From positions 1 to 64,000 of the forward strand of contig CAIPYV010000096.1 of NCBI GenBank assembly GCA_903869365.1: 64,000 nt of DNA, given 5' to 3'. A program made the position numbers and the translations under genes. Shown here one piece after another: positions 1 to 13,349 of this stretch. This DNA is from an uncultured Chlorobiaceae bacterium. GTDB taxonomy: Bacteria; Bacteroidota; Chlorobiia; Chlorobiales; Chlorobiaceae. Within the stretch, counting starts at the first letter, position 1; every line of letters starts with the position of its first letter. The notes below the pieces were generated by a model. That model had not been told where the DNA came from and made no database searches. It saw nothing but the letters and a program-made list of their open reading frames with translations.

Positions 1-391
1 TCCGGAGATAAATAAATAACGCCTAATCGATTCTAATATAATACTTTATGATGATGTTTCAAAACGTTATGGTGTGTTTTAAGTCCGACAGGCTGCTAGA
101 GAAACACGAATGTGCGTGCCTGTGCGCGCCACAGAATTCGGTTTCCCGCACATTTGACAAAGGAAAGTGATTCCGTTGAATTCTGGAACTTGAGTCCAAT
201 TGTGGAAACCGCACCAAGATCACTTGAGTGGCCAGGTGTAGCTCGGGTAATTGAACAATTGCTCTTCCGTGATATCCCATTCGATAGGCTTTGGCATAGC
301 CGTGCGAGTCTAACGTCACGCATCACCCGCCGAAGGAGCTTAGCATCTGAAGGTTGGGTGGATGCGCCTTGTTCGGCTTTTGAGTGTGTCT
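1..391. other. No gene assigned at left edge
   Basis: Several overlapping frames are open on both strands here (a 100-codon frame on plus, 76- and 86-codon frames on minus), but none has a recognisable domain, a convincing ribosome binding site or a partner gene. Mutually overlapping open frames on both strands are typical of moderately GC-rich non-coding DNA. The stretch may be the remnant of a gene that extends left of the window. I cannot assign a function. Confidence 0.4.
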
Positions 392-1102
392 TTACATATG
401 TCCAGACTGTCTAAGAATGTCACAATTCCTTTTTGCGGGTTCAAAACCATTATCTGCTGACTTCTTCATCCAACGCAAACCCTCTCTCTCTGATTGTGTG
501 ACCCCGTCACCACGCATACATATGAGGGCATAGTTGAATTGAGCTTCCGCGTGATCCATGTCTGCGGCCTGTCGAATAAAGTCCGCAGCCATAACCCATT
601 TTCCTTCTCCTCGCAAATTGATGCCTTCCTGGAACAATTCCTGTGCCATCGGTGATGAGGTAGTCTGATGCTCAAGAACCTTCTCGATAACAAAAGAACC
701 AGTTGTGCCCTTAGTTTCGTCCACCAACCACACACCGTCATATGCATCAGGATGATACGACGCCGGCGATCTGCAGAGAAAACTGCGATCACGTTCAGAT
801 GCTGTATTTAATGGGGCCACCAATGAATACCCCGCAGCGACAACAGTCATTCCAGTCAAATTTCGTCTTGTTCCGCATAAGGAGCACTCTACGCCACTTT
901 CATTCCACTCATGGCGGTGGCGGTGTGTCGCCTCTGGCATAGGTTTAGTCGGTGTTGATGTCGGAGGTTGCTTGGGCGTAGCGGGAGCGTGCGCAGTTTG
1001 CGGTGGCTGATTCTTAGCCGTAGCAGAGTCAGCCGTTTTCGCCAGAATGGGGGCTGGTTCTTTACTTGGCGAACCACCGAATAGTTTTTTCCAGAAGCTC
1101 AT
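392..1102 (-). CDS. Sel1-repeat protein with short N-terminal FWKKLFG motif
   Basis: This 236-aa protein has three visible parts. Residues 1-12 form a short aromatic/basic segment (SFWKKLFGG). Residues about 13-70 are rich in Pro, Ala, Thr and Lys and are probably disordered. A C-x2-C pair (CSLCGTRRN) near residue 75 could bind a metal but lacks a second pair nearby. The C-terminal 85 residues hold two Sel1-like helical repeats (AQELFQEGINLRGEGKW and AQFNYALICMRGDGV). Sel1 repeats mediate protein-protein contacts; no enzymatic activity is implied. There is no signal peptide, so it is probably cytoplasmic or peripherally membrane-bound. It stands alone. The SUMF1-like gene at 2561 begins with a very similar N-terminal segment, which suggests a shared targeting or docking role (inference). 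Confidence 0.75.
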   Translation of the reverse strand: MSFWKKLFGGSPSKEPAPILAKTADSATAKNQPPQTAHAPATPKQPPTSTPTKPMPEATHRHRHEWNESGVECSLCGTRRNLTGMTVVAAGYSLVAPLNTASERDRSFLCRSPASYHPDAYDGVWLVDETKGTTGSFVIEKVLEHQTTSSPMAQELFQEGINLRGEGKWVMAADFIRQAADMDHAEAQFNYALICMRGDGVTQSEREGLRWMKKSADNGFEPAKRNCDILRQSGHM

Positions 1103-2052
1103 GGGTCTCCTTTCGTGTTGTTTAGTTGCCGAACAACAAATAGACGGATCCGCCTAAACCGCGGATTTTAGAGTTTCAACCCATATAAAACTCCGATTAT
1201 CAACTAATCAAAAAACGGTTAACCGCATGTATAATAATCGGTTAAACAGTTTATTGAATTATATTTCTGGTTCATATATGGATCAGTAAAAAAAATGGCT
1301 TATAGGATAACAATACGAAAACTGACTCCAAGTTTCCCTATACTTGAGTTCATAAGTATTAAGTAACCTATAATTTATTATACAAATAAAATTATAAAAA
1401 ACACACTTTTATCAGCAATATTTTCACGAACAGGTAATCACGCAGTCAGCCCGCACTCAGCTACAGAGCCTGCACCCCGCTCATAAAGCCCGCCCCTCCG
1501 CCTCGCTCCATGCATTGCCGCCAAGCCATTGCTGCAGCACAATCCCGCTGTCTTTGCTGGCTGCTTGCACAGGCGGGAGAGCTGGGCATTAGCGGCGGTC
1601 GATGCATTGGCAGGATGGCGGCAAATCGGCGGCATGACAGCGGCACTTAAAAGCATTCATGGCGAGTACGCATTTTTAGGTCTGCGAGCCTGCAGAGCTT
1701 GCTTGGCTTGCTGGCTTGAAACGTGCATGTGGCGGGCAGGCTGCTTGCATTGGCGGCGTGAGAACGGACATTGGCAGTGCTGTCGGGCGGAAGAGGATTG
1801 GTGTGACAACTGACCTTTTACAATTCAAAGCACCCGATTTTGCTGCACGGTGACTGAGAGTCTTCTATTGCATGGATAGTATCGTAACCGTTAGTTTGAG
1901 CTTCGAACGAACGTCCGCAAAACTTGATCTGCCTCGGTGGCACAGCATTTGCAAAAAGAGAAGGCCAAATGATCGCCAGTCGTAAGGCAGATCAACCATT
2001 GCTTGCCTCATACCGACGTTTGCCTCTTTATCGGACGTATAGCTGCTCTTAT
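1103..2052. other. Non-coding stretch with palindrome and first diverged repeat
   Basis: No supportable gene. Positions about 1160-1435 are strongly AT-rich and contain a perfect 10-bp palindrome CGGTTAACCG (1216-1225) with a second CGGTTAA at 1239-1245 and a TATAAT-like hexamer between them, possibly the control region of the minus-strand Sel1 gene. From about 1440 the sequence turns GC-rich with repeated GCATTGGC and GGCGGC words, and includes a diverged first copy of the repeat seen at 2053 and 2251. The open frames here change strand and phase and look like by-products of base composition. Confidence 0.45.
1669..1790. repeat. Diverged copy A of ~170-bp repeat
   Basis: This stretch follows the same word order as the copies at 2053 and 2251: GCATTT-AGGTCTgCG, then GCTTGCTTGGCTTGCTGGCTTG, then a GGCG-GCA block, then GCATTGGCGGCGTGAG. 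Similarity is clearly lower than between the other two copies, so this assignment is tentative. Confidence 0.35.
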
Positions 2053-2214
2053 CTCGTTTTCAAGTGAGGGGCATCCCAACCAGGCGCATTTAAGGTCTCC
2101 GCGCTTGGGCTTGGGTGTGAGTCCGATGCTGAAGGGCTTGCTTTTTGTGGCTTGCTGACTTGCTTTGGTGGCGTGCAGATAGCGCATTGGCGTGAGTGAT
2201 TTGCAGCTTGCTTG
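2053..2214. repeat. Copy B of ~170-bp direct repeat
   Basis: The unit opens with CTCGTTTTCA, carries GCATTTAAGGTCTCCGCGCT and ends with GCGCATTGGCGTGAGTGATT followed by TGCAGCTTGCTTG. The same three blocks recur in the same order in copy C directly downstream; the middle part differs in length and sequence. No coding function is evident. It could be a dispersed intergenic element or specify a structured RNA. Confidence 0.8.
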
Positions 2215-2250
2215 CGAGCAATTGTTGCTGGACGCATGGTTGCTTTTTTT

Positions 2251-2432
2251 CTCGTTTTCAGGTGGTGGGCTCCGAACCAGGTGCATTTAAGGTCTCCGCG
2301 CTTGCGCTTGGACTTGACCGAAAGTCCGCTGCCGGAGGGTTTGCTTTGGCAAGCGGTTGGCTGATTGGCGGCATTGCGGACTTTTGCGGCGTGCAGACAG
2401 CGCATTGGCGTGAGTGATTTGCAGCTTGCTTG
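2251..2432. repeat. Copy C of ~170-bp direct repeat
   Basis: Second well-preserved copy, sharing the opening CTCGTTTTCA, the GCATTTAAGGTCTCCGCGCT block and the closing GCGCATTGGCGTGAGTGATT block with copy B. It is about 20 bp longer because of an insertion-like difference in the middle. It ends about 130 bp upstream of the SUMF1-like gene, so a promoter or leader role for that gene is possible but not shown. Confidence 0.8.
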
Positions 2433-2560
2433 AAGTGCAGCAGGCAATTCGGTATATTGACAGTAAATATTCAAGCTAAGCTGAACGCGATTTCCCAAAT
2501 GTTCATTCATAATCGTATCCCTCTGTAAACAAAGACTTGTTAACTATAAACGGAGTCAGA

Positions 2561-3517
2561 ATGAGCTGGTTTACTAAAATATTTGGCCATAAACAAGATC
2601 TTCAAAATCAAGATTCAGCCGAACAACTCAACCACCCACATCAAGCGTCACCTGAGCAGCCTGTTTTGGGTGAAACGGTGTCGACTCTGAATATCAGCAA
2701 AGAGTCTCTCATCGATAACTATGTTTTGATACGCGGCGGAGAGTTTACGATGGGAAGTCCGGAGGGTGAAGTTAATCGCCAAACCAATGAGACGCAGCAT
2801 CAGGTAAAATTGAGTGACTTTTATATGAGCAAATATACGGTAACTGTTGCCGAGTTCAGGAGATTCCTGGAAGCATCGGGGTACCAAGCATTTTCTGAAA
2901 TATTCGGCTGGAGCTTTATTATCTCCAATGGTGAGTCAAAAAAAGGGGATGGAGTAAACTGGCGTCATGGCGTTTCGGGTAGTGTGCGACCTCAGAGTGA
3001 AGAGAATCATCCGGTATTGTATGTGAGCTGGTATGACGCTGTCGCCTATTGCAAATGGCTCTCAACAAAAACGGGGAAACAATTTCGTTTACCAACCGAA
3101 GCAGAGTGGGAGTATGCTTGTCGAGCAGGAAGCAAAACAGCCTTCAATTTCGGAGAAAACCTTACAACGAATCAGGCAAACTATAACGGTTATCACTATA
3201 AACGCAATCCGGAAGGGGGATTCCGTCAGAACACCGTTGAGGTAAACAGTTTTGCCCCAAATGCATGGGGTTTGTACAACATGCATGGCAATGTTTATGA
3301 ATGGTGCAGTGACTGGTACAGTGGCACTTACTATGATGATTGTAAAGCAAAAGGCACCGTTTATAATCCCGCTGGTCCAGCAAGCGGTTCGAACCGTGTG
3401 TTTCGTGGCGGGAGCTGGCGCAACCACGTCGCGTACTGTCGGTCTGCTGATCGTGGTGGCAGCATCCCCTCCAGCCATAACTTCGAACTTGGCTTCCGCC
3501 TGGTGTTCGTACCGTAG
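2561..3517 (+). CDS. FGE/SUMF1-family (C-type-lectin fold) protein, DGR-target-like
   Basis: Formylglycine-generating-enzyme-like protein of 318 aa. The ATG at 2561 is preferred over an upstream TTG (2537) because GGAG lies just ahead of it. Residues 1-10 (MSWFTKIFGH) resemble the start of the Sel1 protein at 392-1102 and are followed by a Gln/Asn/Pro-rich linker. The SUMF1 domain starts near residue 60: GGEFTMGSPEGE, then HPVLYVSWYDAVAYCKWL, RLPTEAEWEYACRAG, NMHGNVYEWCSDW and RVFRGGSWRN. Many members of this fold are not true formylglycine-generating enzymes, and the paired active-site cysteines of FGE are not evident here, so a binding role is more likely. The C-terminus (GGSW...YCRSADR...LGFRLV) has the layout of the hypervariable ligand-binding face in diversity-generating retroelement targets. 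No signal peptide. Confidence 0.85.
   Translation: MSWFTKIFGHKQDLQNQDSAEQLNHPHQASPEQPVLGETVSTLNISKESLIDNYVLIRGGEFTMGSPEGEVNRQTNETQHQVKLSDFYMSKYTVTVAEFRRFLEASGYQAFSEIFGWSFIISNGESKKGDGVNWRHGVSGSVRPQSEENHPVLYVSWYDAVAYCKWLSTKTGKQFRLPTEAEWEYACRAGSKTAFNFGENLTTNQANYNGYHYKRNPEGGFRQNTVEVNSFAPNAWGLYNMHGNVYEWCSDWYSGTYYDDCKAKGTVYNPAGPASGSNRVFRGGSWRNHVAYCRSADRGGSIPSSHNFELGFRLVFVP
3411..3514 (+). other. Candidate DGR variable region (VR)
   Basis: In this last third of the SUMF1-like gene the solvent-face codons are mostly of the form NNC or NNT (cgc, aac, cac, gtc, then ggt, ggc, agc, atc), as expected if AAC/AAT codons of a template repeat were diversified at adenines. The invariant scaffold GGSW, YCRSA and GFRLV flanks them. 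This is a pattern match to known DGR targets. No template repeat and no reverse transcriptase gene is visible in the window. Confidence 0.4.
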
Positions 3518-3794
3518 TCAATTGGCAGCTCATTCCGGCTTTGCTTTTGAGCGAGAGAGCAGTACCAACATTTTGGTGAGCGGCGTTGAGGGACGAAACG
3601 ACTCACTCCGCCCTGATGGCTCCATTTGCGCAGCATTGCTGCACCGCCAGCCGCCAGAGAACTCGCAGCAGTCCGCACCAGACGCGCCACGTACGGCATA
3701 AGACCGCTGCTTACAACCCGTATTTCCATAAGTTCCTTAATGGTTAGAGCATCGGGAAATATACGTCATATTCAGCAATATTACATCCTCTGCA
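3518..3794. other. Gene-free junction between SUMF1-like gene and mobilizable element
   Basis: No supportable gene. A minus-strand frame (up to 122 codons from 3729) is open through here but runs antisense into the SUMF1-like gene. I searched by eye for a second copy of the end of the SUMF1-like gene (a template repeat) and for a copy of the tRNA-Val 3' end (a left att site) and found neither. Confidence 0.4.
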
Positions 3795-4235
3795 TCAATC
3801 AGCATTGTTGCTGACAGCCTGATGCAGCTCATCTTCATCGGCTATTGTGTCCTGCACAAGATCGTCAATAAACCGATGACCGCCTGCCATCTGGGTTGCC
3901 ACATACTCGACAAATTTCTGGTATTGATTCCAGGCCTCCCTTCTTGCTGCATCTTTTTCATTTTCACCGATACTCGGGGTATGGGCAAACCAGAGCTGTA
4001 CAAAAACAGCAAACGCTTCGGCCATCGCATTGATATCACGTTCCAGACGGGTGGCATGACGGCCAAGCCGGTCAAGCCTTCGCAACAGCAACTTCATATC
4101 GGTGGAATCATCGAAATACTCTTTCAGAGCTGATCCAATGACGCTGCTTTCCGTTGCATTGATTCTCTTGCAGTATGCCTTGAACTGGGCATAGAGTTCC
4201 GGAGAGAGGTAGGGGTGAATGTTCTTGCGCTTCAT
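3795..4235 (-). CDS. Ribbon-helix-helix-like conjugation accessory protein
   Basis: The 146-aa product starts with a short segment (KRKNIHPYLSPELYAQFKAY) followed by helices, the layout of CopG/Arc-type ribbon-helix-helix DNA-binding domains. Residues about 55-100 look helical and Leu-rich (LLLRRLDRLGRHATRLERDI) and may dimerise. The start ATG overlaps the stop of the coupling-protein gene by 4 nt, so translation is coupled and the gene is last in the transfer operon. Small RHH proteins beside VirD4/TraG and VirD2-type relaxase genes often act at oriT or as autoregulators; here that is inferred from context. Nothing recognisable follows it downstream. Confidence 0.6.
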   Translation of the reverse strand: MKRKNIHPYLSPELYAQFKAYCKRINATESSVIGSALKEYFDDSTDMKLLLRRLDRLGRHATRLERDINAMAEAFAVFVQLWFAHTPSIGENEKDAARREAWNQYQKFVEYVATQMAGGHRFIDDLVQDTIADEDELHQAVSNNAD

Positions 4236-6337
4236 AATGGTAAATGTCCTCCTTGTGGTGTTCTGCTTAAATCGATAATGGGTGCTCGCCCAGGTTGACT
4301 GCCATTCCGGTTGATGACGGCATCTTCTACAGAAAGCGTGTTTTCAGGAATCGACTCTTCATGAGAGAAATCATCCGAATCATCCCGGTGGAGGAAAGCA
4401 TGATCCTCGGCTGCTCGATCTTCATCAGGTAACTCCGTTTCAGATTCAACGGCATTGTTCCTGCATACCTCCTCTGAGGGAATTTCTACCCGTTGAACCT
4501 GACAGACTACCGGGTCGAACCATGAATTGCACTCCCCTTTCTTGAGAAGTTCTGCCTGCTGCTCGTCCGGATCATCCGGAGCTGGAAGCCAAGCCCTCTC
4601 CCTGAAGCGTTCGTCCTGATAGTACATGAGTTTTTTAGCCCGGTAGGGTGGCAATCCGCCGATCATCACTAATGCATCATCGCCCGGCAACTGAAGTATT
4701 TCACCGGGCGTGAGTAACGGCCTCGGGGTTTCCTGCTCGCTTTCCATGATATGGCCAAGCCAGGGCGAAAGCCGGTTACCGGCAAAGTTCATCTGGAGCC
4801 GTTTTTCTGTCGCCTGCCCGAGCAGATCGGAAATCCGTTTGGCCGTCCGTTCATCGAGAGCACCGTAGGTGATCCGTACATGTGAGTTATCGAGAATTGA
4901 ATTATTGGGGCCGTAAGCCATCTCGATCTGGTTCAGTGACTGGGCAATCATGACGCATTTGATGCCGTATCCGGCCATATAGGCCAGTTCCGATTCAAAA
5001 AAGCCAAGCCTTCCAAGACTGGGAAATTCATCGAGCATCATCAGCAACCGGTGCCGGTAATGCTTCTTGCCCTTTCCATACTCGATCTTTTCGGTCAGTC
5101 GCCTCCCGAACTGGTTCAGGACAAGCCGCATCAGCGGTTTTGTTCGTTCGATATCACTTGGAGGAACAACAAGGTAGAGGCTTACCGGATGCTCACTGTT
5201 CATCAGATCACGAATGGTGAAATCTGATGCTGAGGTGTTCCGGGCAATAAACGGGTCCCGGTACAAACCAAGAAAGCTCATAGCGGTAGAGACCACTCCC
5301 GAGAGTTCGTTTTCTGTCTTGTTAAGCATCTCCCTTGCACAGGCAGCCACAACCGGATGAGCGCCCTCTTTCAGATGAGAAAAGGTAAGCATGAATTTCA
5401 GGGTATCGTAAACGCTTCTTTCCGGGTCGGAGAGAAAGTTTGCAACACCACTTAGGCTTTTATCCTCTTCGGCATAGAGCACATGCAGGATAACACCGAC
5501 AAGCAGGGAGTGCCCGGTTTTTTCCCAGTGATCGTGATGTTCTTTCGAGCCATCCGGATCTACCAGAATATCGGCGACATTCTGCACATCCCTGACCTCG
5601 TAAGCCCCTTTTCGAATTTCAAGCAACGGATTGAAGCGTACTGAATCCGGTGCGGTCGGCTCGAACCGCCAGCAATGCGAAAAACGCCTCCGCCATCCGG
5701 CAGTAGCTGACCACAACTCCTTCTTGATGTCGTAGGCTATAACCGATTCGTTCCATGCCAGCAGTGTCGGGATAACAAGCCCCACCCCCTTACCGCTTCT
5801 GGTCGGTGCAAAGCAGAAAATATGCTCGGGGCCGTTATGACGCAGAATCATGCTGCCGGGCTTGTCCATCTTCCAATGTACTTCCCCGGTGCCCTTTGTC
5901 ACTTCCGTATGAAATTCAGCGTCGTTTGTTTGCCCCAGAATCACACCCTGCTCAACGAATATGCCGGTCTGCTGCAACTCACTGACCGATGCCCATCGAG
6001 CCGTTCCATAAGAGCCCGACGGGTTGCGACGTTTCGCCCGCCGAACAGCAAGGAACACCATCAGGGCAAACATGACGAAGAAGTTGACGTAGGTAATCCG
6101 GCTGGCATGTTCAAAAACCCAAGGCGCATATGCCTCGAAATGAAATGCCCAGAAAAACCACTGCCATGGATCGTAAACGGGATAACCCTGCACAACAAGA
6201 AGCGGTTTGCCAAGCTGATGCTGATATCCCAGCAGCCATGCGACATATTGTGTTGTTGCCCAGGTGCCGAACAATATGAAAGACATGCCGGTCGCTACAT
6301 GACCATAAAAAACATTGACCGTGCGGGTTTTTTTCAT
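4232..6337 (-). CDS. traG: Type IV coupling protein, VirD4/TraG family
   Basis: This 701-aa inner-membrane ATPase couples the relaxase-DNA complex to a type IV secretion channel. Hydrophobic segments lie near residues 10-35 and 82-98. The Walker A motif is APTRSGKGVGL (about 177-187) and the Walker B region is LLMMLDEFPSLGRL (about 418-431), both diagnostic of the TraG/VirD4 family. The acidic, low-complexity C-terminal 110 residues are typical of variable substrate-docking tails. It starts 3 nt after the relaxase stop and overlaps the next gene by 4 nt, so the three genes form one transcription unit. No T4SS structural genes are present, so the element probably depends on a channel supplied from elsewhere (inference). 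Confidence 0.93.
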   Translation of the reverse strand: MKKTRTVNVFYGHVATGMSFILFGTWATTQYVAWLLGYQHQLGKPLLVVQGYPVYDPWQWFFWAFHFEAYAPWVFEHASRITYVNFFVMFALMVFLAVRRAKRRNPSGSYGTARWASVSELQQTGIFVEQGVILGQTNDAEFHTEVTKGTGEVHWKMDKPGSMILRHNGPEHIFCFAPTRSGKGVGLVIPTLLAWNESVIAYDIKKELWSATAGWRRRFSHCWRFEPTAPDSVRFNPLLEIRKGAYEVRDVQNVADILVDPDGSKEHHDHWEKTGHSLLVGVILHVLYAEEDKSLSGVANFLSDPERSVYDTLKFMLTFSHLKEGAHPVVAACAREMLNKTENELSGVVSTAMSFLGLYRDPFIARNTSASDFTIRDLMNSEHPVSLYLVVPPSDIERTKPLMRLVLNQFGRRLTEKIEYGKGKKHYRHRLLMMLDEFPSLGRLGFFESELAYMAGYGIKCVMIAQSLNQIEMAYGPNNSILDNSHVRITYGALDERTAKRISDLLGQATEKRLQMNFAGNRLSPWLGHIMESEQETPRPLLTPGEILQLPGDDALVMIGGLPPYRAKKLMYYQDERFRERAWLPAPDDPDEQQAELLKKGECNSWFDPVVCQVQRVEIPSEEVCRNNAVESETELPDEDRAAEDHAFLHRDDSDDFSHEESIPENTLSVEDAVINRNGSQPGRAPIIDLSRTPQGGHLPL

Positions 6338-6340
6338 GAG

Positions 6341-8305
6341 TTATCTCCCTTTTCGCAGATCGAGTTGCTGAACCACTTTATACCCGGCTTCAGCATGGAT
6401 CAGCTCAACCTGTTTCGAGACAAGCCTTTCATAATCCTGCTTCCATGGGACCAGTGAAAACTCTTTGGCCTTCGGATCATAGAGCTGAGCATAACGTTTG
6501 CCGCTCGCTTGCAGGCCTGTATCGCTCAATGTCCCCCGGAACCGCTCTCCTGATTTCAGCTCCCTGAACTCTCCGCCATGCTGCTGTTTGATCTTTTCAG
6601 CGAGATCATGTTTTTCAAGCTTGTCAAGATGTTTTGCCCTGGCAGGATCGAGAGGGTCGATGCCAAGCTCCTGCAGAAAAAGAGCACGCCGCCGGACAGC
6701 ATCGTTCAGCTCTTTGCCAAACCCCTGTTTTGCAAATTCCGGGTTATCGGGTTTTGCTGTAAACCGGTCGATCCACATCCTGCCCCGGTAGTTTTCCTGT
6801 TCAGGTAATCGGAGCAGAGACTGCCGCTCAATTTTCTGTTGCATGGCGGGATTGGCCGCATCCCTTTCTTTCAGGGTTGCGATAAGATCATCCGGAACTC
6901 TCCATGAACCGTCTGGAAGCTGCCTGACGAGACCAAATCGCTGCAACCGCTGCAACCGTCGTTCATGGGCTTCGACATATGCTTTACGATGAAGCCTGCC
7001 TCCTCCTTCAACCTCAACCATCTCTTCCTGAATATCTTTCAGGTGCTGCTGCCGCTCATAGATGCCCCCATGCTTTGCTGCGTGGCTGGCAATGGCAAGA
7101 TCAGCCTTTTTCAGCCACTCTTCTTTTTCGGCTGTAACCGTGACGATATCACCCACCCCATACTTTCCGGGATCACTGCTTTTACCGAGATTGACATACC
7201 ATGCATTTCCCTGAGGAGTTTCAACCACGATGTAGTATCGGTCATGCCATTCATCGGACATTCCTTTGCTGACAAGCTTCCCTTCAATCCGCTGCGCATC
7301 CGGTTGAGGAGCATACATCCTGTACTTTCCGGGATCGCCACCGACGCTCTGGTGCATCTCCCTGAAGATTTCGTTTCGCCTGGCAATCGCCTGCAGCTTC
7401 TGCTCCCATCCTTCGGTCATCGACCACTGCCGGACTCCTGTATTTTCAGCAAGACCGAATGATTCAAGAGACTTCAAACGCCGGGAGAGCAGGCGTTGCT
7501 GAAACAGCTCCCTTTTTTCGACCGGACACTGACCAAGTTCTACCATACCATTTCGTTCAATGGCAACGATAGATCGGTCAAGAGAGGTGAGCCTTGCCGG
7601 TGATACCTCTTTGGTTCTCTGCTGCTGAATCTCCAGCTCTGAACGCATACCCAGTTCTCTGGTGGCAATTTCACCTGCCCGGTTGCGTATACCGTTCGAG
7701 ATATATTCAGGGCTGATTCTCAGCTCATTGCCATCACTGTCTACCCCTCTGACGATGATATGGACATGAGGGTTATCGGTATTGTAGTGATTCACGGCAC
7801 CCCAGTCGATCTTCCGGTCAAGATCGGACTCCATCTGGTTGACCAGTTTCCGGGTAAACTCATCGAGGTCAAGATCATCGGCATTTTCCGGAGAAACGAT
7901 AAAGCGGAACTGATGCGGCTCACCCTCAATCTCTCTCTGGAAACTGTTCCGGTCAAATCGGTTTTCATCACCATAGAGCTTGCCGGCAGTTCCATCCTTT
8001 TCAACACCTCCCCGCTCAACATACTGGACGTGCAGCATTGCGGCTCTTTTGCCCGCCGCAGTCATCTGAACGATTCTTGCCTTTACGACGACCCTGCGTG
8101 CATAATGACCGGCGCTTTTTACATGGCTTGGGCTGGCTCCACGATTTCTGTGGCCTCCCCGCAATGAACGGGTTGCTGTTTTTTTTGCAGACGTTTTTTT
8201 ACCAAGCTGATCCAGAAAAGAGCGCTTCATAACGGGCGCCTTTTCGACACGCGATTTTCCGCCTAACCGTGGCCGAAAAATCGGCAATTCTTCAGATGAC
8301 TTCAT
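6341..8305 (-). CDS. Relaxase, VirD2-like MOBP type with DUF3363-like region
   Basis: The 654-aa protein should nick oriT and stay bound to the 5' end of the transferred strand. The N-terminal 85 residues are very basic. The catalytic domain shows a likely motif-I tyrosine at Tyr95 in HVQYVERGGVEKDG, a histidine in PHQFRFIVSPE (His131), and the metal-binding motif NHYNTDNPHVHIIVRG (His173, His180, His182). This layout matches the VirD2-like relaxases carrying a DUF3363 domain that are found in integrative mobilizable elements with TraG and AlpA/ParA genes. The long C-terminal half is mixed helical with no further enzyme motif. The gene is preceded by a 234-bp gap that may contain oriT. Confidence 0.9.
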   Translation of the reverse strand: MKSSEELPIFRPRLGGKSRVEKAPVMKRSFLDQLGKKTSAKKTATRSLRGGHRNRGASPSHVKSAGHYARRVVVKARIVQMTAAGKRAAMLHVQYVERGGVEKDGTAGKLYGDENRFDRNSFQREIEGEPHQFRFIVSPENADDLDLDEFTRKLVNQMESDLDRKIDWGAVNHYNTDNPHVHIIVRGVDSDGNELRISPEYISNGIRNRAGEIATRELGMRSELEIQQQRTKEVSPARLTSLDRSIVAIERNGMVELGQCPVEKRELFQQRLLSRRLKSLESFGLAENTGVRQWSMTEGWEQKLQAIARRNEIFREMHQSVGGDPGKYRMYAPQPDAQRIEGKLVSKGMSDEWHDRYYIVVETPQGNAWYVNLGKSSDPGKYGVGDIVTVTAEKEEWLKKADLAIASHAAKHGGIYERQQHLKDIQEEMVEVEGGGRLHRKAYVEAHERRLQRLQRFGLVRQLPDGSWRVPDDLIATLKERDAANPAMQQKIERQSLLRLPEQENYRGRMWIDRFTAKPDNPEFAKQGFGKELNDAVRRRALFLQELGIDPLDPARAKHLDKLEKHDLAEKIKQQHGGEFRELKSGERFRGTLSDTGLQASGKRYAQLYDPKAKEFSLVPWKQDYERLVSKQVELIHAEAGYKVVQQLDLRKGR

Positions 8306-8397
8306 TGCTCCGGATCGTTATGATTTTTTACCCCTTACGTTGCCTGAAAACGGCTCCTGATGCTATTTCGCAGTATGTTAACCGAATGTCACCATGC

Positions 8398-8412
8398 TAA
8401 CACGCCGTGTTA
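8398..8412. promoter_or_regulatory. Perfect inverted repeat upstream of relaxase
   Basis: TAACACG-C-CGTGTTA is a perfect 7+1+7 palindrome about 95 bp upstream of the relaxase start, in the only sizeable gap of the transfer operon. Its size and symmetry suit a dimeric repressor, for instance one of the element's small RHH or HTH proteins. The binding protein is not identified. Confidence 0.4.
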
Positions 8413-8431
8413 ACCCTTTAATCCATTGCGT

Positions 8432-8474
8432 AACAATGCCTTGAAAGGCAATTGTTCGCATTGGTTTATCTTGC
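8432..8474. other. Candidate origin of transfer (oriT)
   Basis: An imperfect inverted repeat (AACAATGCCTT-GA-AAGGCAATTGTT, 8432-8455) is followed after 11 bp by TATCTTGC (8467-8474), one base different from the IncP-type nic consensus (YATCCTGY). In RP4 the nic site likewise lies close to one arm of an inverted repeat bound by TraJ. The site sits directly between the peptidase gene and the relaxase gene. This is inference from architecture; the nic match is short. Confidence 0.35.
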
Positions 8475-8539
8475 ACTACAACTGTTTACACACTCTCTTT
8501 CTCCCAAACCTCTTGATCATCGGGAAGCATGGACCTCTT

Positions 8540-9049
8540 TCAGAAAAGCCACAAAGGAACTGCAATGCCAAGAACAGAACACTCCTGAATCGGGCCATAG
8601 TACCGTGAATCAAAGCTGTTCGCCATACCTTCGATCCCTACCAGAAACCCCGATTGCACAACCCCGCAAGCGACATAGTCAGGTAAATTCCTGCCCTCTT
8701 TATCGCACTTCTGTATTCCTCCAAAATCATGACCGGCTACCTTGAATCGTCCGAATCTGGTGCATACAAAGTCACCCCTGAGACCGATAAGAGGCTTCAC
8801 CAGAAACCCATTGTCACGAAGCCAGTGGCGATCCTTTACCATCCGCCTGACCCCTTCAGGAACCTTGAAAACAAGAAGATCGCCACGATGGTAAAACGCC
8901 TTTCTCTCTATCCGGTAAAAGCCTTTCGGCAAGCTGTCGGTATAGTTATACACGCACCAAACTGCGGGAAAAAACCGGCCTACCAACGCAAGCGATGCGA
9001 TGAGGATTGCGGCACCGATCAAAGGGAAAAATCGCCGATAGTTCTGCAT
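8540..9049 (-). CDS. traF: TraF-type S26 conjugative-transfer signal peptidase
   Basis: The 169-aa protein has one N-terminal membrane segment (residues about 8-33) and the catalytic dyad of S26 peptidases: a Ser near residue 39 in DSLPKGFYRI and a Lys near residue 85 in LVKPLIGLRGD, followed by DSRYYGPI. In IncP plasmids TraF cyclises the TrbC pilin; genes of this family also occur in elements that lack pilin genes, as here. It overlaps the preceding gene by 31 nt, consistent with tight co-translation. Downstream is the 234-bp gap holding the candidate oriT, then the relaxase. Confidence 0.88.
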   Translation of the reverse strand: MQNYRRFFPLIGAAILIASLALVGRFFPAVWCVYNYTDSLPKGFYRIERKAFYHRGDLLVFKVPEGVRRMVKDRHWLRDNGFLVKPLIGLRGDFVCTRFGRFKVAGHDFGGIQKCDKEGRNLPDYVACGVVQSGFLVGIEGMANSFDSRYYGPIQECSVLGIAVPLWLF

Positions 9050-9486
9050 TTCAGCACCAGTGAGTTTATTTCCTGATTACTCATATTCCGGCTGGCGAGA
9101 AGTGCATGAAACCGGCAGAAAAACATATCCGGCAACTCCTGCAACGGCACTTTTTTCCTCCGCAGATAATGAACCAGACGAAACAGTTTTCGGACGTTTC
9201 CCCTGGATCTCGCCTCGACCAGAAGCGTTACCGATGGATAAACTCCCGCCACTTTTTCAGATGCATCTCCTTCACCTGTTCTGAAGAGAAACGCTCGGGT
9301 TTTTCGACGCTGCACCGTCATGTATCCGACAAGCGTTCCCGGCGAAAAAAGAGCAATATCTCCCTGCTGTCCCTGTATGGTGGAAACCGGTGAACCGAAA
9401 AAAACCGAGCAGAGAAGTTCGGCTTGGTTTCTCAGTTGAACAGCGGTAAATGTTTGATCCGGAGTCATGTTCATTCCTGCTATCAC
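9019..9486 (-). CDS. DUF2840-like protein of mobilizable element
   Basis: This 155-aa protein has no membrane segment or catalytic motif that I recognise. Its layout, with a central hydrophobic FSPGTLVGYMTV strand, a hydrophobic VTLLVEARSRGNVRKLFRLV segment and a closing Arg/Phe-rich helix, resembles DUF2840 proteins as I recall them. Those characteristically lie between parA and the S26 peptidase gene in integrative mobilizable elements, and this gene has exactly that position. The start overlaps the stop of the upstream RHH gene by 4 nt and its end overlaps traF by 31 nt. Function is unknown. Assignment rests largely on position. Confidence 0.55.
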   Translation of the reverse strand: MIAGMNMTPDQTFTAVQLRNQAELLCSVFFGSPVSTIQGQQGDIALFSPGTLVGYMTVQRRKTRAFLFRTGEGDASEKVAGVYPSVTLLVEARSRGNVRKLFRLVHYLRRKKVPLQELPDMFFCRFHALLASRNMSNQEINSLVLKCRTIGDFSL

Positions 9487-9755
9487 CGGGCAATCCGGGA
9501 TTTATTGTGTTTAGAAAAAAAGTCGTTCAACGCTTCCCCTGTCATGGACTGTATCGTCATTCCCTCCTGGAGTCCGATCATCTTCAATTGCTTGATGACA
9601 TCAGCTTCAAACCACACGGTCAAGGGCTTTTTCCCTGCCCTGCAAGGCGAAACGTATAGGGAAACCGGGTTGAAGCCGGCATCATGGTCATCAGCTTTTG
9701 CAGGTTTCAAATCCTCTTTTCGGAGTGCATCGACAAGACTTCCCTGTTTGCTCAT
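9483..9755 (-). CDS. Small DNA-binding protein (RHH-like) beside ParA
   Basis: The frame is open much further upstream, but those codons lie antiparallel inside parA. The ATG at 9755 is preceded by GAAGGAGATC, a strong ribosome binding site, giving a 90-aa protein. The C-terminal half (PLTVWFEADVIKQLKMIGLQ followed by a helix ending NDFFSKH) has the strand-helix-helix pattern of RHH proteins. The N-terminal half is polar and probably flexible. It starts 19 nt after parA, so it probably acts as the centromere-binding or regulatory partner of ParA (inference). Confidence 0.65.
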   Translation of the reverse strand: MSKQGSLVDALRKEDLKPAKADDHDAGFNPVSLYVSPCRAGKKPLTVWFEADVIKQLKMIGLQEGMTIQSMTGEALNDFFSKHNKSRIAR

Positions 9756-9774
9756 GGCAGGATCTCCTTCTTGA

Positions 9775-10434
9775 TCAGTTGATTCCGAGACGGCTGCATA
9801 GCCATCGAAAAACAGCGAGAATTTCTTCGGCTGCTTTCGATGCCGGTTCGTATTCCAGAACCGATAACCCGACGGTAAGCGAGTGAACAAAAGCTGCTCT
9901 CTGCCCCAGCGTATCAGGCGCCATATCGACACCGTAACCTGTAATGGCAGTTGTTGCTTCGGCGGCCAGAACACCTCTCGATGGCACGCCATTAAGCACC
10001 ACAACAGCCGGTGTCTGTGCCAGAGAAGCGAGATCGACTGAAGTTGCTATCGCCCTTAAATCAAAAACCGATGGCCGACATGGAATAAGCACAAGATCAG
10101 CAGCTCTTGCGGCAGACAACGCCACCGTTTCGGAATGAGGGGCTGTATCAAGAATGACCAGATCGGCACCGTTTTCGCGGGCTGTTTGAAGGATATGCGG
10201 CAGTCTCGATGAATGGGATGAAATAACGACAGGGCTCTCTTTCCGGCGGATATCATGCCAACTCCTGGCACTGGATTGAGGGTCCAGATCGACAATTGCA
10301 CAGTGCAATCCCCTCTGTTCTGCAGCAATGGCCAGATTGACGGCAATCGTTGTTTTTCCTGCCCCGCCCTTCTGGGAGACAACTGCTATTGTTTTCATTT
10401 TCTCGGCTTTGATTTCACTCCTTGAAGCACTCAT
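9775..10434 (-). CDS. parA: ParA-family partition ATPase
   Basis: The 219-aa protein carries the deviant Walker A motif KGGAGKTT (residues about 22-29) and the switch motif DLDPQSSARSW, both diagnostic of ParA/Soj ATPases. A GGAG lies 8 nt ahead of the ATG at 10434; an internal ATG at 10398 is a possible alternative that would remove 12 residues. In mobilizable elements ParA may stabilise the excised circle or assist relaxosome positioning. It forms one operon with the RHH gene downstream and probably the AlpA-like gene 46 bp upstream. Confidence 0.92.
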   Translation of the reverse strand: MSASRSEIKAEKMKTIAVVSQKGGAGKTTIAVNLAIAAEQRGLHCAIVDLDPQSSARSWHDIRRKESPVVISSHSSRLPHILQTARENGADLVILDTAPHSETVALSAARAADLVLIPCRPSVFDLRAIATSVDLASLAQTPAVVVLNGVPSRGVLAAEATTAITGYGVDMAPDTLGQRAAFVHSLTVGLSVLEYEPASKAAEEILAVFRWLCSRLGIN

Positions 10435-10480
10435 AAAAACTCCGTCAATACCTATTGACAGCGATAAAAATGATTCATCA

Positions 10481-10825
10481 CTATTTCACCCGGTATACTG
10501 ATTTTCGCTTGACAAGTTTGTTGATGACCTCCTTTTCCCTCTCGTAATTGGAGCGCACCCTGCTCTGATCGAGCCACTCTTTCAACTTGATTTCAGAGAA
10601 GTAGAGCCTCTTGGTTTTTTTCATGTAGGGAATCTTGTTGCGCTGGACCAGACTATAGATCGTCGGGATCGCGAGACGCAGATACTCGGCGGCTTCAGAA
10701 ACCGTGAGAAGCTTGTCCGGCTTTTCGGATTGTAATGCTCTGGTTATTTCCTGACGTATGATGATGGGGAGAGCATCGATCAAATCATCAATCGACTTAA
10801 ACCGGGGGTTTTCATCATGTCCCAT
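10481..10825 (-). CDS. AlpA/excisionase-like helix-turn-helix protein
   Basis: The ATG at 10825 is chosen because AAAGGA lies 8 nt ahead of it; a further upstream ATG (10870) lacks this. The 114-aa product has an HTH_17-type MerR-like DNA-binding domain: LLTVSEAAEYLRLAIPTIY, then SLVQRNKIPYMKKTKRLYF and KLKEWLDQSR. Such proteins act as excision factors or activate integrase or transfer genes. An N-terminal segment of about 50 residues precedes the domain, and the C-terminus is basic. The gene heads the parA-traF operon. Confidence 0.82.
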   Translation of the reverse strand: MGHDENPRFKSIDDLIDALPIIIRQEITRALQSEKPDKLLTVSEAAEYLRLAIPTIYSLVQRNKIPYMKKTKRLYFSEIKLKEWLDQSRVRSNYEREKEVINKLVKRKSVYRVK

Positions 10826-10871
10826 CGCTGATTCCTTTAAAGATTCTTGAGAGCAACGATGGAAAATCATC

Positions 10872-10914
10872 TAAAAAATTAACCCCGTTCAACCTCCAGA
10901 GGGTAAAACGGGGT
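10872..10914 (-). terminator. Rho-independent terminator after orphan gene
   Basis: On the minus strand ACCCCGTT and AACGGGGT pair (10882-10889 with 10907-10914), with CCTC/GAGG able to extend the stem inside, followed by TTAATTTTTT. It separates the integrase/orphan-gene unit from the AlpA-parA operon. Confidence 0.75.
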
Positions 10915-11047
10915 ACGGTTTATTATGGGTTTTCTGTCATGAGCGCAGGCAGGGGTTGCTGCCGAATGATGAGCATGATATGGGGTGTCTATCCGCAAGC
11001 TCTTCAGATCTTCCGGAATGATGCGAGAGGATGGCGCTTGTTTATCT

Positions 11048-12022
11048 TTACCAGCTTCTTTTGACTGCGGAATGAGTTCTGTACGGCAGCCAATCGAAAA
11101 GACAAATCCGGCTTCGGGATGAAGGCTCACCTTTTGCTTTCGTGAGGATATCCCAGACGGAATTCAAGCTCAACTCCGATTCTCCGCTTTTCGAGCGGTA
11201 CTTGAAGTTGTGGCAGAGCCAGTTACGAAGATGCGTCTGTGAATCGGTGATCTTTCGATGATAATGAAGGCGCCGGAAAACCTCGACCAATCTATTCTGG
11301 TTCCCCATGAAGAGAAGTTTTCGGTCTGACTCATTCCCCAGCAGCAGCAACAGCAAATCTTCCTGCTCCCGGGTGTCGAAAAATTTACTGAGGTCATTAT
11401 ACAACTCATCAAGCTGTTCAGTGGAGAGATGAATCTTCAAGACTGACACGTCATGAACCGGAACCGTTTTTACCCGCACAAGGGCTGGACGAGCCGCCTC
11501 GATGTTTCGAGTGATGAGCGTGTTGTACTCCGGATACAACAACTGAATCCTCTCTGAAAATTTTGACGATGGTGTTCCTGAACGGTAACCTATCTCCTGG
11601 AACAAAAAACCGAGCGCACGCTCAAGGGTCACAAAAACGCCCTGATAGGTTTCATAACCTTCATCTGTGTCGTTTATGAATTCAGCGTTGTACAGTTCGG
11701 ATACCTTTTGTTCGGCAGTCTTGCCAATCAGCATTCTGAAATGCTGCATCTCCCGGCCCCGGTATTCGAGAGGGATAAATTCGTGGCCACTTTGCGCTTT
11801 CTGAAACAATTTCCCGGCTTCAGCATCGACCTCTCTGATCCTCTTCAAAACAAAGGTAATCATGCCATACAGCTCGCAGGGAAAAAGACGTGCGATAAAA
11901 GGAGGCTCACTCTCCGGATCATTGCGATCCTGCTCGCAAAGCAAAAACAGATCGGACGAGCGAACTATGTGGTGACCGATGTATTCCCATTTGTTTACGC
12001 CACTTTTGAAAGTCCCTGTCAT
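11048..12022 (-). CDS. Orphan 324-aa protein of the mobilizable element
   Basis: I do not recognise this family. The protein has no signal peptide or membrane segment. The N-terminal third is rich in Arg/Glu with an aromatic core. The C-terminal part, from SVLKIHLSTEQLDELYNDLS through LFMGNQNRLVEVFRRLHYHR to HLRNWLCHNFKYR, is helical and vaguely resembles the C-terminal helical region of RteC-like regulators of Bacteroides elements; that is only a hint. The last 25 residues (SSRSRICLFDWLPYRTHSAV) look out of register with the rest, and a different frame is open past this stop to 10879, so a frameshift near 11110 is possible. The start lies 13 nt after the integrase stop with AAGG ahead of it. 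Confidence 0.6.
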   Translation of the reverse strand: MTGTFKSGVNKWEYIGHHIVRSSDLFLLCEQDRNDPESEPPFIARLFPCELYGMITFVLKRIREVDAEAGKLFQKAQSGHEFIPLEYRGREMQHFRMLIGKTAEQKVSELYNAEFINDTDEGYETYQGVFVTLERALGFLFQEIGYRSGTPSSKFSERIQLLYPEYNTLITRNIEAARPALVRVKTVPVHDVSVLKIHLSTEQLDELYNDLSKFFDTREQEDLLLLLLGNESDRKLLFMGNQNRLVEVFRRLHYHRKITDSQTHLRNWLCHNFKYRSKSGESELSLNSVWDILTKAKGEPSSRSRICLFDWLPYRTHSAVKRSW

Positions 12023-12035
12023 TTGTACCTTATGC

Positions 12036-13187
12036 CTAGATAGATGGCATCATCGCAATGGTACTGCGTTTAGTGCGAGGATGAATTTTCGCGTATCTTA
12101 TGGTGGTTTTTCGATCCCGGTGTCCGAGAATATCGCCTACAGCGTCAAGGTCTGCCCCCGCGTTCAACAACATCGTTGCACCAGTATGCCTTGCCCAGTG
12201 GGGGGAGATGTCCTTGCATGCCCAACTGAAATGGTTGCGGATTTCATGCGACAGTTCATGCCCATAAAGCTCGAAAGCACGCTGTGCCCAGACTTTCAAC
12301 ATGCCGCCATACCATTTTTTATGTCCCACATTGAATATCTTGTCGTCTGCGTTAAGTTCTCTTCCGAGCCTCTTCTTTGCAAGCTCCCGAGCCTCCCGAA
12401 GATAGATCATACCCTGTTCAGAAACAGGAATAGACTCTATCCGCTGTTTTTTTGCCTGGCGGAAATAGACCTCGAAACCGCCGATGCCATCCGGTCTTAT
12501 ATTCGATTCATTCATATTGACAAGGTCACCGGAGCGAACAGGAACAAAGCAGTTGAACAGAAAAGCAGCTCTGCGCCCAAGATGTCGGTGCGGCGTCTTG
12601 GCCAGAAGCATGATTTCTTCAAAGTAAAGGTATTTAATTTCTCCTTCATGTTCCGGAATCTGAGGAACCAACTTGTTAGGATTATCGACAACATATCCAT
12701 CCTGCTCAGCTTTTGAAATGGCCTGCCGGATTTTGGTCGAATAGGTTCGAGCAGTATTCTGTGCATGTGCGTTGAGAAGATAACCCTGATAAGCCTCCAG
12801 CCACTGATGACTCAGATCTCTGAATCTGATACCATCGGGAGCAAATCGGGCCAGACTCTTAATGGCATCCTTCCAGTTTTGCCGGGTATTTTTATTCAAC
12901 GTTTTATCGGCGAGCTGCCCGCAATAGGAGAGGAAATCACCGCTGTCATACTCTGCCGGTGATATTTTCAAACCGGTGGACAATCCCTTCAGCTCAAGCT
13001 GGCGCTTGGCCATAACATCCTGACAGAATTGAATCGTCTGCCGGTAATTGGCCTTGTCTTTTGGATCTGCAACAATATCCAGAGGCTCATATGAGCGCTT
13101 CCCATTATGATAAATCTCAAGATAGAATGAATGGCAACCTGGCTGCTGCCTGCCAGTCATAACCCGATGTCTTAAAACAAGTCTCAT
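12036..13187 (-). CDS. int: Tyrosine recombinase (phage-type integrase)
   Basis: The frame is open to 13328, but upstream codons start at a TTG inside the tRNA terminator; MRLVLRHRV at 13187 (or the ATG at 13199) is the likely start. The N-terminus (SFYLEIYHNGKRSYEPL) matches the arm-binding domain of Bacteroidota-type integrases. A core-binding SAM-like domain follows, then the catalytic domain with the first Arg in FVPVRSGDLVNMNESN, the box-II motif HWARHTGATMLLNAGADL (HxxR), LGHRD and the nucleophile Tyr in TTIRYAKIHP. All catalytic residues are present, so the enzyme should be active. It lies next to the 3' end of tRNA-Val, the expected target. Confidence 0.93.
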   Translation of the reverse strand: MRLVLRHRVMTGRQQPGCHSFYLEIYHNGKRSYEPLDIVADPKDKANYRQTIQFCQDVMAKRQLELKGLSTGLKISPAEYDSGDFLSYCGQLADKTLNKNTRQNWKDAIKSLARFAPDGIRFRDLSHQWLEAYQGYLLNAHAQNTARTYSTKIRQAISKAEQDGYVVDNPNKLVPQIPEHEGEIKYLYFEEIMLLAKTPHRHLGRRAAFLFNCFVPVRSGDLVNMNESNIRPDGIGGFEVYFRQAKKQRIESIPVSEQGMIYLREARELAKKRLGRELNADDKIFNVGHKKWYGGMLKVWAQRAFELYGHELSHEIRNHFSWACKDISPHWARHTGATMLLNAGADLDAVGDILGHRDRKTTIRYAKIHPRTKRSTIAMMPSI

Positions 13188-13310
13188 AATAGCCCCCATG
13201 AAGTTAGAGGTACGTTTTCGCGTGGCAATGGCGTAACAAAAACAATATAAAAAAGGCTCAACAACGATCAAAAACGATAAAAACGAAGTGATTTCAAGCG
13301 TTTTAAGGGG

Positions 13311-13349
13311 AAAGAAAAAAGCCTGCAAGTTGTTATTTTGCAGGCTTTT
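13311..13349 (-). terminator. Terminator downstream of tRNA-Val
   Basis: AAAAGCCTGCAA (13317-13328) and TTGCAGGCTTTT (13338-13349) form a perfect 12-bp stem; on the minus strand the hairpin is followed by TTTTTTCTTT. It ends the tRNA transcript and insulates the integrase gene. Confidence 0.85.

Follow-up and report, generated by a model that had tools for sequence, protein, structure and literature searches.

DGRs that write more than one target are already known from Chlorobium (PMC3521204), as are remote and remnant targets of HRDC-type DGRs (PMC4891356) and degenerate loci with activity in trans (PMC10907252). The DGR of Chlorobium phaeobacteroides DSM 266 has two variable regions (VRs) in the DiGReF survey table (PMC3521204). 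In Treponema denticola, an HRDC-type DGR combines an HRDC accessory protein with the FGE-like target TvpA (PDB 2y3c) and with remote targets, and isolates without a complete DGR retain remnant targets (PMC4891356). Thiohalocapsa PB-PSB1 carries many DGR targets per genome together with degenerate loci that lack a reverse transcriptase (RT); its NACHT/STAND-type multidomain targets, which end in a C-type-lectin domain, have been proposed as antigen sensors (PMC10907252). In BPP-1, a hairpin/cruciform at the target is required for efficient homing, and both its stem structure and its loop sequence matter (PMC3240598).

The locus studied here lies in an uncultured Chlorobiaceae bacterium, by kinship a green sulfur bacterium of the genus Chlorobium, near the start of a 64,000-nucleotide stretch (the window) of one contig of a draft genome. 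Like C. phaeobacteroides DSM 266, the host belongs to the Chlorobium group and has more than one VR per DGR but, unlike that strain with its two VRs, it has some ten VR-like copies scattered over its genome, and the RT is broken. The Chlorobiaceae DGR family to which the locus belongs has in common with T. denticola the HRDC accessory protein, the FGE-like target, the remote targets and the remnant targets without a complete DGR, whereas the accessory gene of T. denticola lies between the template repeat (TR) and the RT and the Chlorobiaceae TR follows the RT on its 3' side; the two systems also have different hosts and targets. The resemblance to Thiohalocapsa PB-PSB1 lies in the many targets, the degenerate loci without RT and the NACHT/STAND-type multidomain targets. 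However, the target in the window consists of an FGE protein alone and has conjugation genes as neighbours, and loss in Thiohalocapsa took the form of MITE replacement while in this genome it took that of hairpin truncation and deletion of the RT core. Taken together, the evidence set out below leads us to conclude, with good confidence, that the window VR is a frozen or retired remote target of a Chlorobiaceae HRDC-type DGR, carried by an intact FGE-fold gene whose variable face stems from past retrohoming.

The gene at 2561-3517 (plus strand) encodes an FGE/SUMF1-like product of 318 aa that belongs to the FGE-sulfatase family (PF03781, E = 8e-65), counts FGE and T. denticola TvpA (2y3c, E = 3e-24) among its solved relatives and is 59-71% identical to FGE proteins from relatives and from its own genome. 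The VR forms the 3' end of this gene, whose FGE/C-type-lectin fold was assigned by sequence from PF03781 and the similarity to TvpA; an AlphaFold2 model with a mean pLDDT of 44 was set aside. Catalytic formylglycine-generating enzyme has two active-site cysteines in its C-terminal segment. The alignment suggests that the active-site segment of human FGE falls within the window VR and is not kept. The intact gene would specify a putative ligand-binding protein of the FGE fold, possibly a sensor or receptor. Its N-terminus, MSWFTKIFG (2561-2590), resembles the MSFWKKLFG of the adjoining Sel1-repeat gene (392-1102), and the closest FGE relatives begin, unlike it, with signal-peptide-like sequences; an N-terminal exchange is possible. 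The first 13.3 kb of the window also encode an S26/TraF-like peptidase, a DUF3363 relaxase, a VirD4/TraG coupling protein and a tyrosine integrase (12036-13328), so that the FGE gene is probably part of an integrated element, either conjugative or mobilisable. Positions 1-13328 would be the end of this element, the contig beginning inside it. A search of a plasmid collection with the window VR gave no match.

A preliminary description of this DNA had proposed that the SUMF1-like gene ends in a DGR-type variable region at 3411-3514, with neither template nor RT in the window. Both proposals hold, because near-copies of the 3' end occur at many loci of the genome and searches of the 64-kb window turned up neither a further TR-like copy nor an RT gene. 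The near-copies lie on contigs C105, C127, C11, C33, C114, C2, C45 and C20, to which a template search added C108, giving about nine VR-like copies besides the window in the 136-contig draft. The variable stretch is real, but its 5' limit lies further out than first thought: alignment to the template places the VR at 3386-3517 (plus strand), that is, 132 bp including the stop codon, homologous to the TR at C11:509-640 and to other Chlorobiaceae TR-like sequences. Beyond the stop codon, a 3' flank common to other VR loci (3518-3609, plus strand) is 94.6% identical to C105 over 92 bp, and homology ends at 3609. Just 3' of the VR, positions 3524-3552 match L021:640-666, just 3' of the TR on C11, in inverted orientation; TR and VR flanks thus differ by an inversion. 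A VR-like sequence on the minus strand of C45 (L023, about 799-919) is joined to a gene cut just past its P-loop (Walker A) region and is followed by a TR-type 3' flank; it appears to have arisen either by recombination between TR and VR or as a chimera during assembly.

As a check, the preliminary description proposed searching the whole genome for an imperfect copy that has adenines where the VR varies and lies next to an RT gene. Such a copy is present at C11:509-640, where an AAC-rich version of the VR lies outside any FGE gene and directly 3' of RT sequence, i.e. as a TR. The adjoining RT is broken. In the sister genome G037, the closest relative, an intact orthologous cassette has the order target VR (C79:5463-5593), HRDC protein (PF00570), RT and TR, the RT being 339 aa long (PF00078, RVT_1) with YMDD read in its translation, and the TR, which starts at 7257 just past the RT stop codon, is 98% identical to the C11 TR. 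Directly upstream of the C11 TR, a 133-aa ORF consists of the N- and C-terminal parts of the G037 RT joined to each other; alignment to that RT indicates that about 606 nt were deleted in frame, and with them the catalytic core, YMDD region included. The start of C11 aligns to the HRDC gene of G037 at its 3' end, and the remainder is off the contig. One further fragment, at the start of another contig (C110:1-231), encodes only RT residues 113-189 and then gives way to other sequence, and apart from these two remains the 136-contig draft contains no intact cognate RT with a YxDD motif. Because the assembly is a draft and several of its contigs stop within a VR or shortly after one (the breaks of C2, C11, C20 and C33 fall in or close to VRs), gaps may hide an intact RT as well as additional TRs. 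The genome also carries two unrelated, apparently intact DGRs, on C36 (L022) and C134 (L025), in which TR and VR differ only at template adenines inside the repeats. Among the other targets, C11 encodes a metallophosphatase-NACHT-FGE fusion of 1210 aa whose C-terminal VR is hypervariable (L021:2119-5748), the C33 target begins with sequence like the phosphatase part of this fusion, and the C105 target has a long N-terminal extension ahead of its FGE end; these three recall the NACHT/STAND targets put forward as antigen sensors in Thiohalocapsa (PMC10907252).

How the VRs differ from their templates bears on when they were last written. We compared 91 sampled VRs with 86 sampled TR-like sequences as templates, and found that VRs across the family differ from their templates mostly at A: 60 of the 91 have 0-2 non-A differences, most have 0-3, and 32 are strictly restricted to A. 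Against its best sampled template, the window VR differs at 20 of 35 A positions and 10 of 97 non-A positions (Fisher p = 1e-7), and is thus 90% identical at non-A sites; its differences are enriched at, and not restricted to, template A. This bias would not by itself prove a VR. Control FGE genes, from genomes with little or nothing of this DGR, differ at 13-16 of 27 A positions and 16-20 of 105 non-A positions, a similar though weaker bias, and for this reason we rejected A bias, the argument of the preliminary description, as stand-alone proof and regard it alone as weak evidence. The case for a VR rests instead on the near-copies, on the common 3' flank and on a divergence at non-A sites that is lower than in the controls. 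By these measures, the window VR is intermediate, more diverged than live VRs and less so than unrelated FGE genes, as would be expected had it been written once and not recently, and part of its 10 non-A differences could reflect an unsampled template. The C11 TR, from which the window VR differs at 16 non-A positions, is not the template that last wrote it. Elsewhere in the host genome, the VRs on C105, C33, C11 and C127 have only 1, 1, 2 and 3 non-A differences, respectively, from best templates that are unlike the C11 TR, suggesting recent activity of a cassette that the assembly lacks; the writer of these four VRs, at least one cassette, has either been lost or falls in an assembly gap. 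Many non-A differences are found on C45 (12), C114 (16) and C108 (16).

VR loci share an inverted repeat about 50 bp past the stop codon, within a common 3' flank, with a conserved 9-nt loop, GAGGGACGA. As in BPP-1, the repeat lies just downstream of the VR, and it is stem structure rather than stem sequence, together with loop sequence, that is conserved (PMC3240598). Compared with the phage-type hairpin of BPP-1, with its stem of 7-10 bp, 4-nt GRNA loop and position 4-34 bp from the VR, the Chlorobiaceae hairpin has a stem of about 16-21 bp with mismatches and lies about 33-55 bp from the stop codon. Its arms vary between loci and remain complementary (86.3% of cells paired versus 72.5% in shuffles), and both sides have changed in 13 of 21 pairs, a value reached by none of 500 shuffles. 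The hairpin is absent from all 36 TR flanks. In the window, alignment with 41 distinct hairpins and their covariation identify an intact left arm, ACCAACATTTTGGTGAGCGGCGTT (3564-3587, plus strand), followed by the intact loop (3588-3596, plus strand) and by a remnant of the right arm that begins with AACGACTCAC (3597-3620, plus strand), the outer partner CCAAAATGTT being missing. The end of homology to C105 at 3609 thus removes the outer ten pairs and leaves the window VR without an intact downstream hairpin/cruciform. Predicted single-stranded DNA folding gives about -8 to -10 kcal/mol for the window, compared with -18.6 to -21.6 for intact copies in the same genome, and default folding of 3510-3660 shows no excess stability (z = 0.29), as expected with a truncated arm. 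Similar hairpins with GGGACG loops occur 3' of Saprospiraceae DGR VRs (L178, L181, L172) and at other Bacteroidota loci, so this type of hairpin is probably wider than Chlorobiaceae.

Loss of the hairpin goes together with decay at non-A sites. Across the whole phylum, inverted repeats correlate weakly with non-A changes (p = 0.02), probably because the hairpin has another form and distance outside Chlorobiaceae. Within Chlorobiaceae, a restriction chosen after the all-phylum result was known, the median number of non-A differences is 1 among 49 hairpin-bearing VRs (maximum 6) and 9 among 21 hairpin-less ones (Mann-Whitney p = 6e-9). This p-value overstates independence, since related sequences are counted as independent, three of the 21 are control FGE genes and many of the others are stand-alone FGE genes. 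An earlier comparison, before later additions, gave p = 6e-5. Two neighbouring genes on G068:C6 provide an example: one has the hairpin and 0 non-A differences, the next lacks the loop and left arm and has 5. The association fits a sequence of events in which hairpin loss would end rewriting and ordinary mutations would then accumulate; drift preceding hairpin loss is the alternative order. For the window VR, the truncated hairpin is a likely cause of the 10 non-A differences.

In our model, the HRDC-type DGR family, which is widespread in Chlorobiaceae and has its working order in G037 (target/VR, HRDC, RT, TR), would copy TR RNA with errors at adenines, and the cDNA would replace the VR of FGE-domain genes that bear the long DNA hairpin. 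In the host genome, the cassette beside the only cognate TR found has lost its RT catalytic core, and the window gene, after losing the outer right hairpin arm, would persist as a frozen descendant, with a variable face set by past retrohoming and altered at present by ordinary mutation. The preliminary description had offered a choice between a remote target and an orphan left after loss of the RT, and each option is partly true. By ancestry the window VR is a remote target, the adenine-bearing near-copy lying on another contig directly 3' of RT sequence; with the C11 RT core deleted, no intact cognate RT in the assembly, part of the hairpin lost and non-A changes gained, it would now behave as an orphan.

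Three other explanations were weighed against this model. The window VR could be a live remote target, still rewritten in trans by an unassembled cassette of the same family with an unsampled template. Contig breaks at or near VRs on C2, C11, C20 and C33 leave room for such a cassette, other VRs of the host fit templates not found in the genome with only 1-3 non-A differences, and trans activity on remote VRs has been reported for Thiohalocapsa (PMC10907252); but the window hairpin is truncated, 10 non-A differences separate the VR from the best sampled template, and the diverged VRs across the family are the hairpin-less ones, so that we consider continued rewriting unlikely. Were the cassette instead one of those in the assembly, the RT of C36 or C134 would have to work in trans with the C11 TR and on the window VR. 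Both of these DGRs are intact and purely A-specific inside their repeats, the C36 RT shares 41% identity with that of G037 and the C36 target also has an FGE domain. Their small neighbouring ORFs are, however, not of the HRDC type and their TRs differ from those of the HRDC family, which makes this the least probable of the explanations, with a minimal chance of being right. Only slightly less improbable is that no VR exists and that an ordinary FGE paralogue has fast-evolving ligand-face residues that coincide with TR adenines. The A bias of the control genes would fit such a paralogue, and C114 and C108 of the same genome reach the control level of non-A divergence; against it, the window VR is closer to its template than these, shares its VR-type 3' flank with C105 and keeps the left arm and loop of a hairpin that is specific to VRs.

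The frozen-target reading has consequences for how DGRs are surveyed. RT-first surveys of metagenomes miss remote and retired targets, and here a single RT-less locus was the starting point from which a family of scattered targets, a cassette that has been inactivated and a hairpin conserved among targets came to light. We regard the hairpin as the most useful product of this analysis: combined with non-A distance, it provides a simple sequence test for live versus frozen targets, and the link between its loss and non-A decay mirrors in nature the hairpin mutants made in BPP-1. A literature search that covered few subscription journals found neither the 9-nt-loop hairpin in HRDC-type DGRs nor this link, and priority is accordingly uncertain. 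Finally, we tentatively speculate, as an idea that may well fail, that the long 9-nt-loop hairpin licenses targets in Chlorobiaceae HRDC-type DGRs, such that a gene gaining a VR end and a hairpin would join the repertoire while one losing its hairpin would be left as a frozen, fixed receptor; a single genome might in this way combine a library that is still live with an archive of earlier variants.
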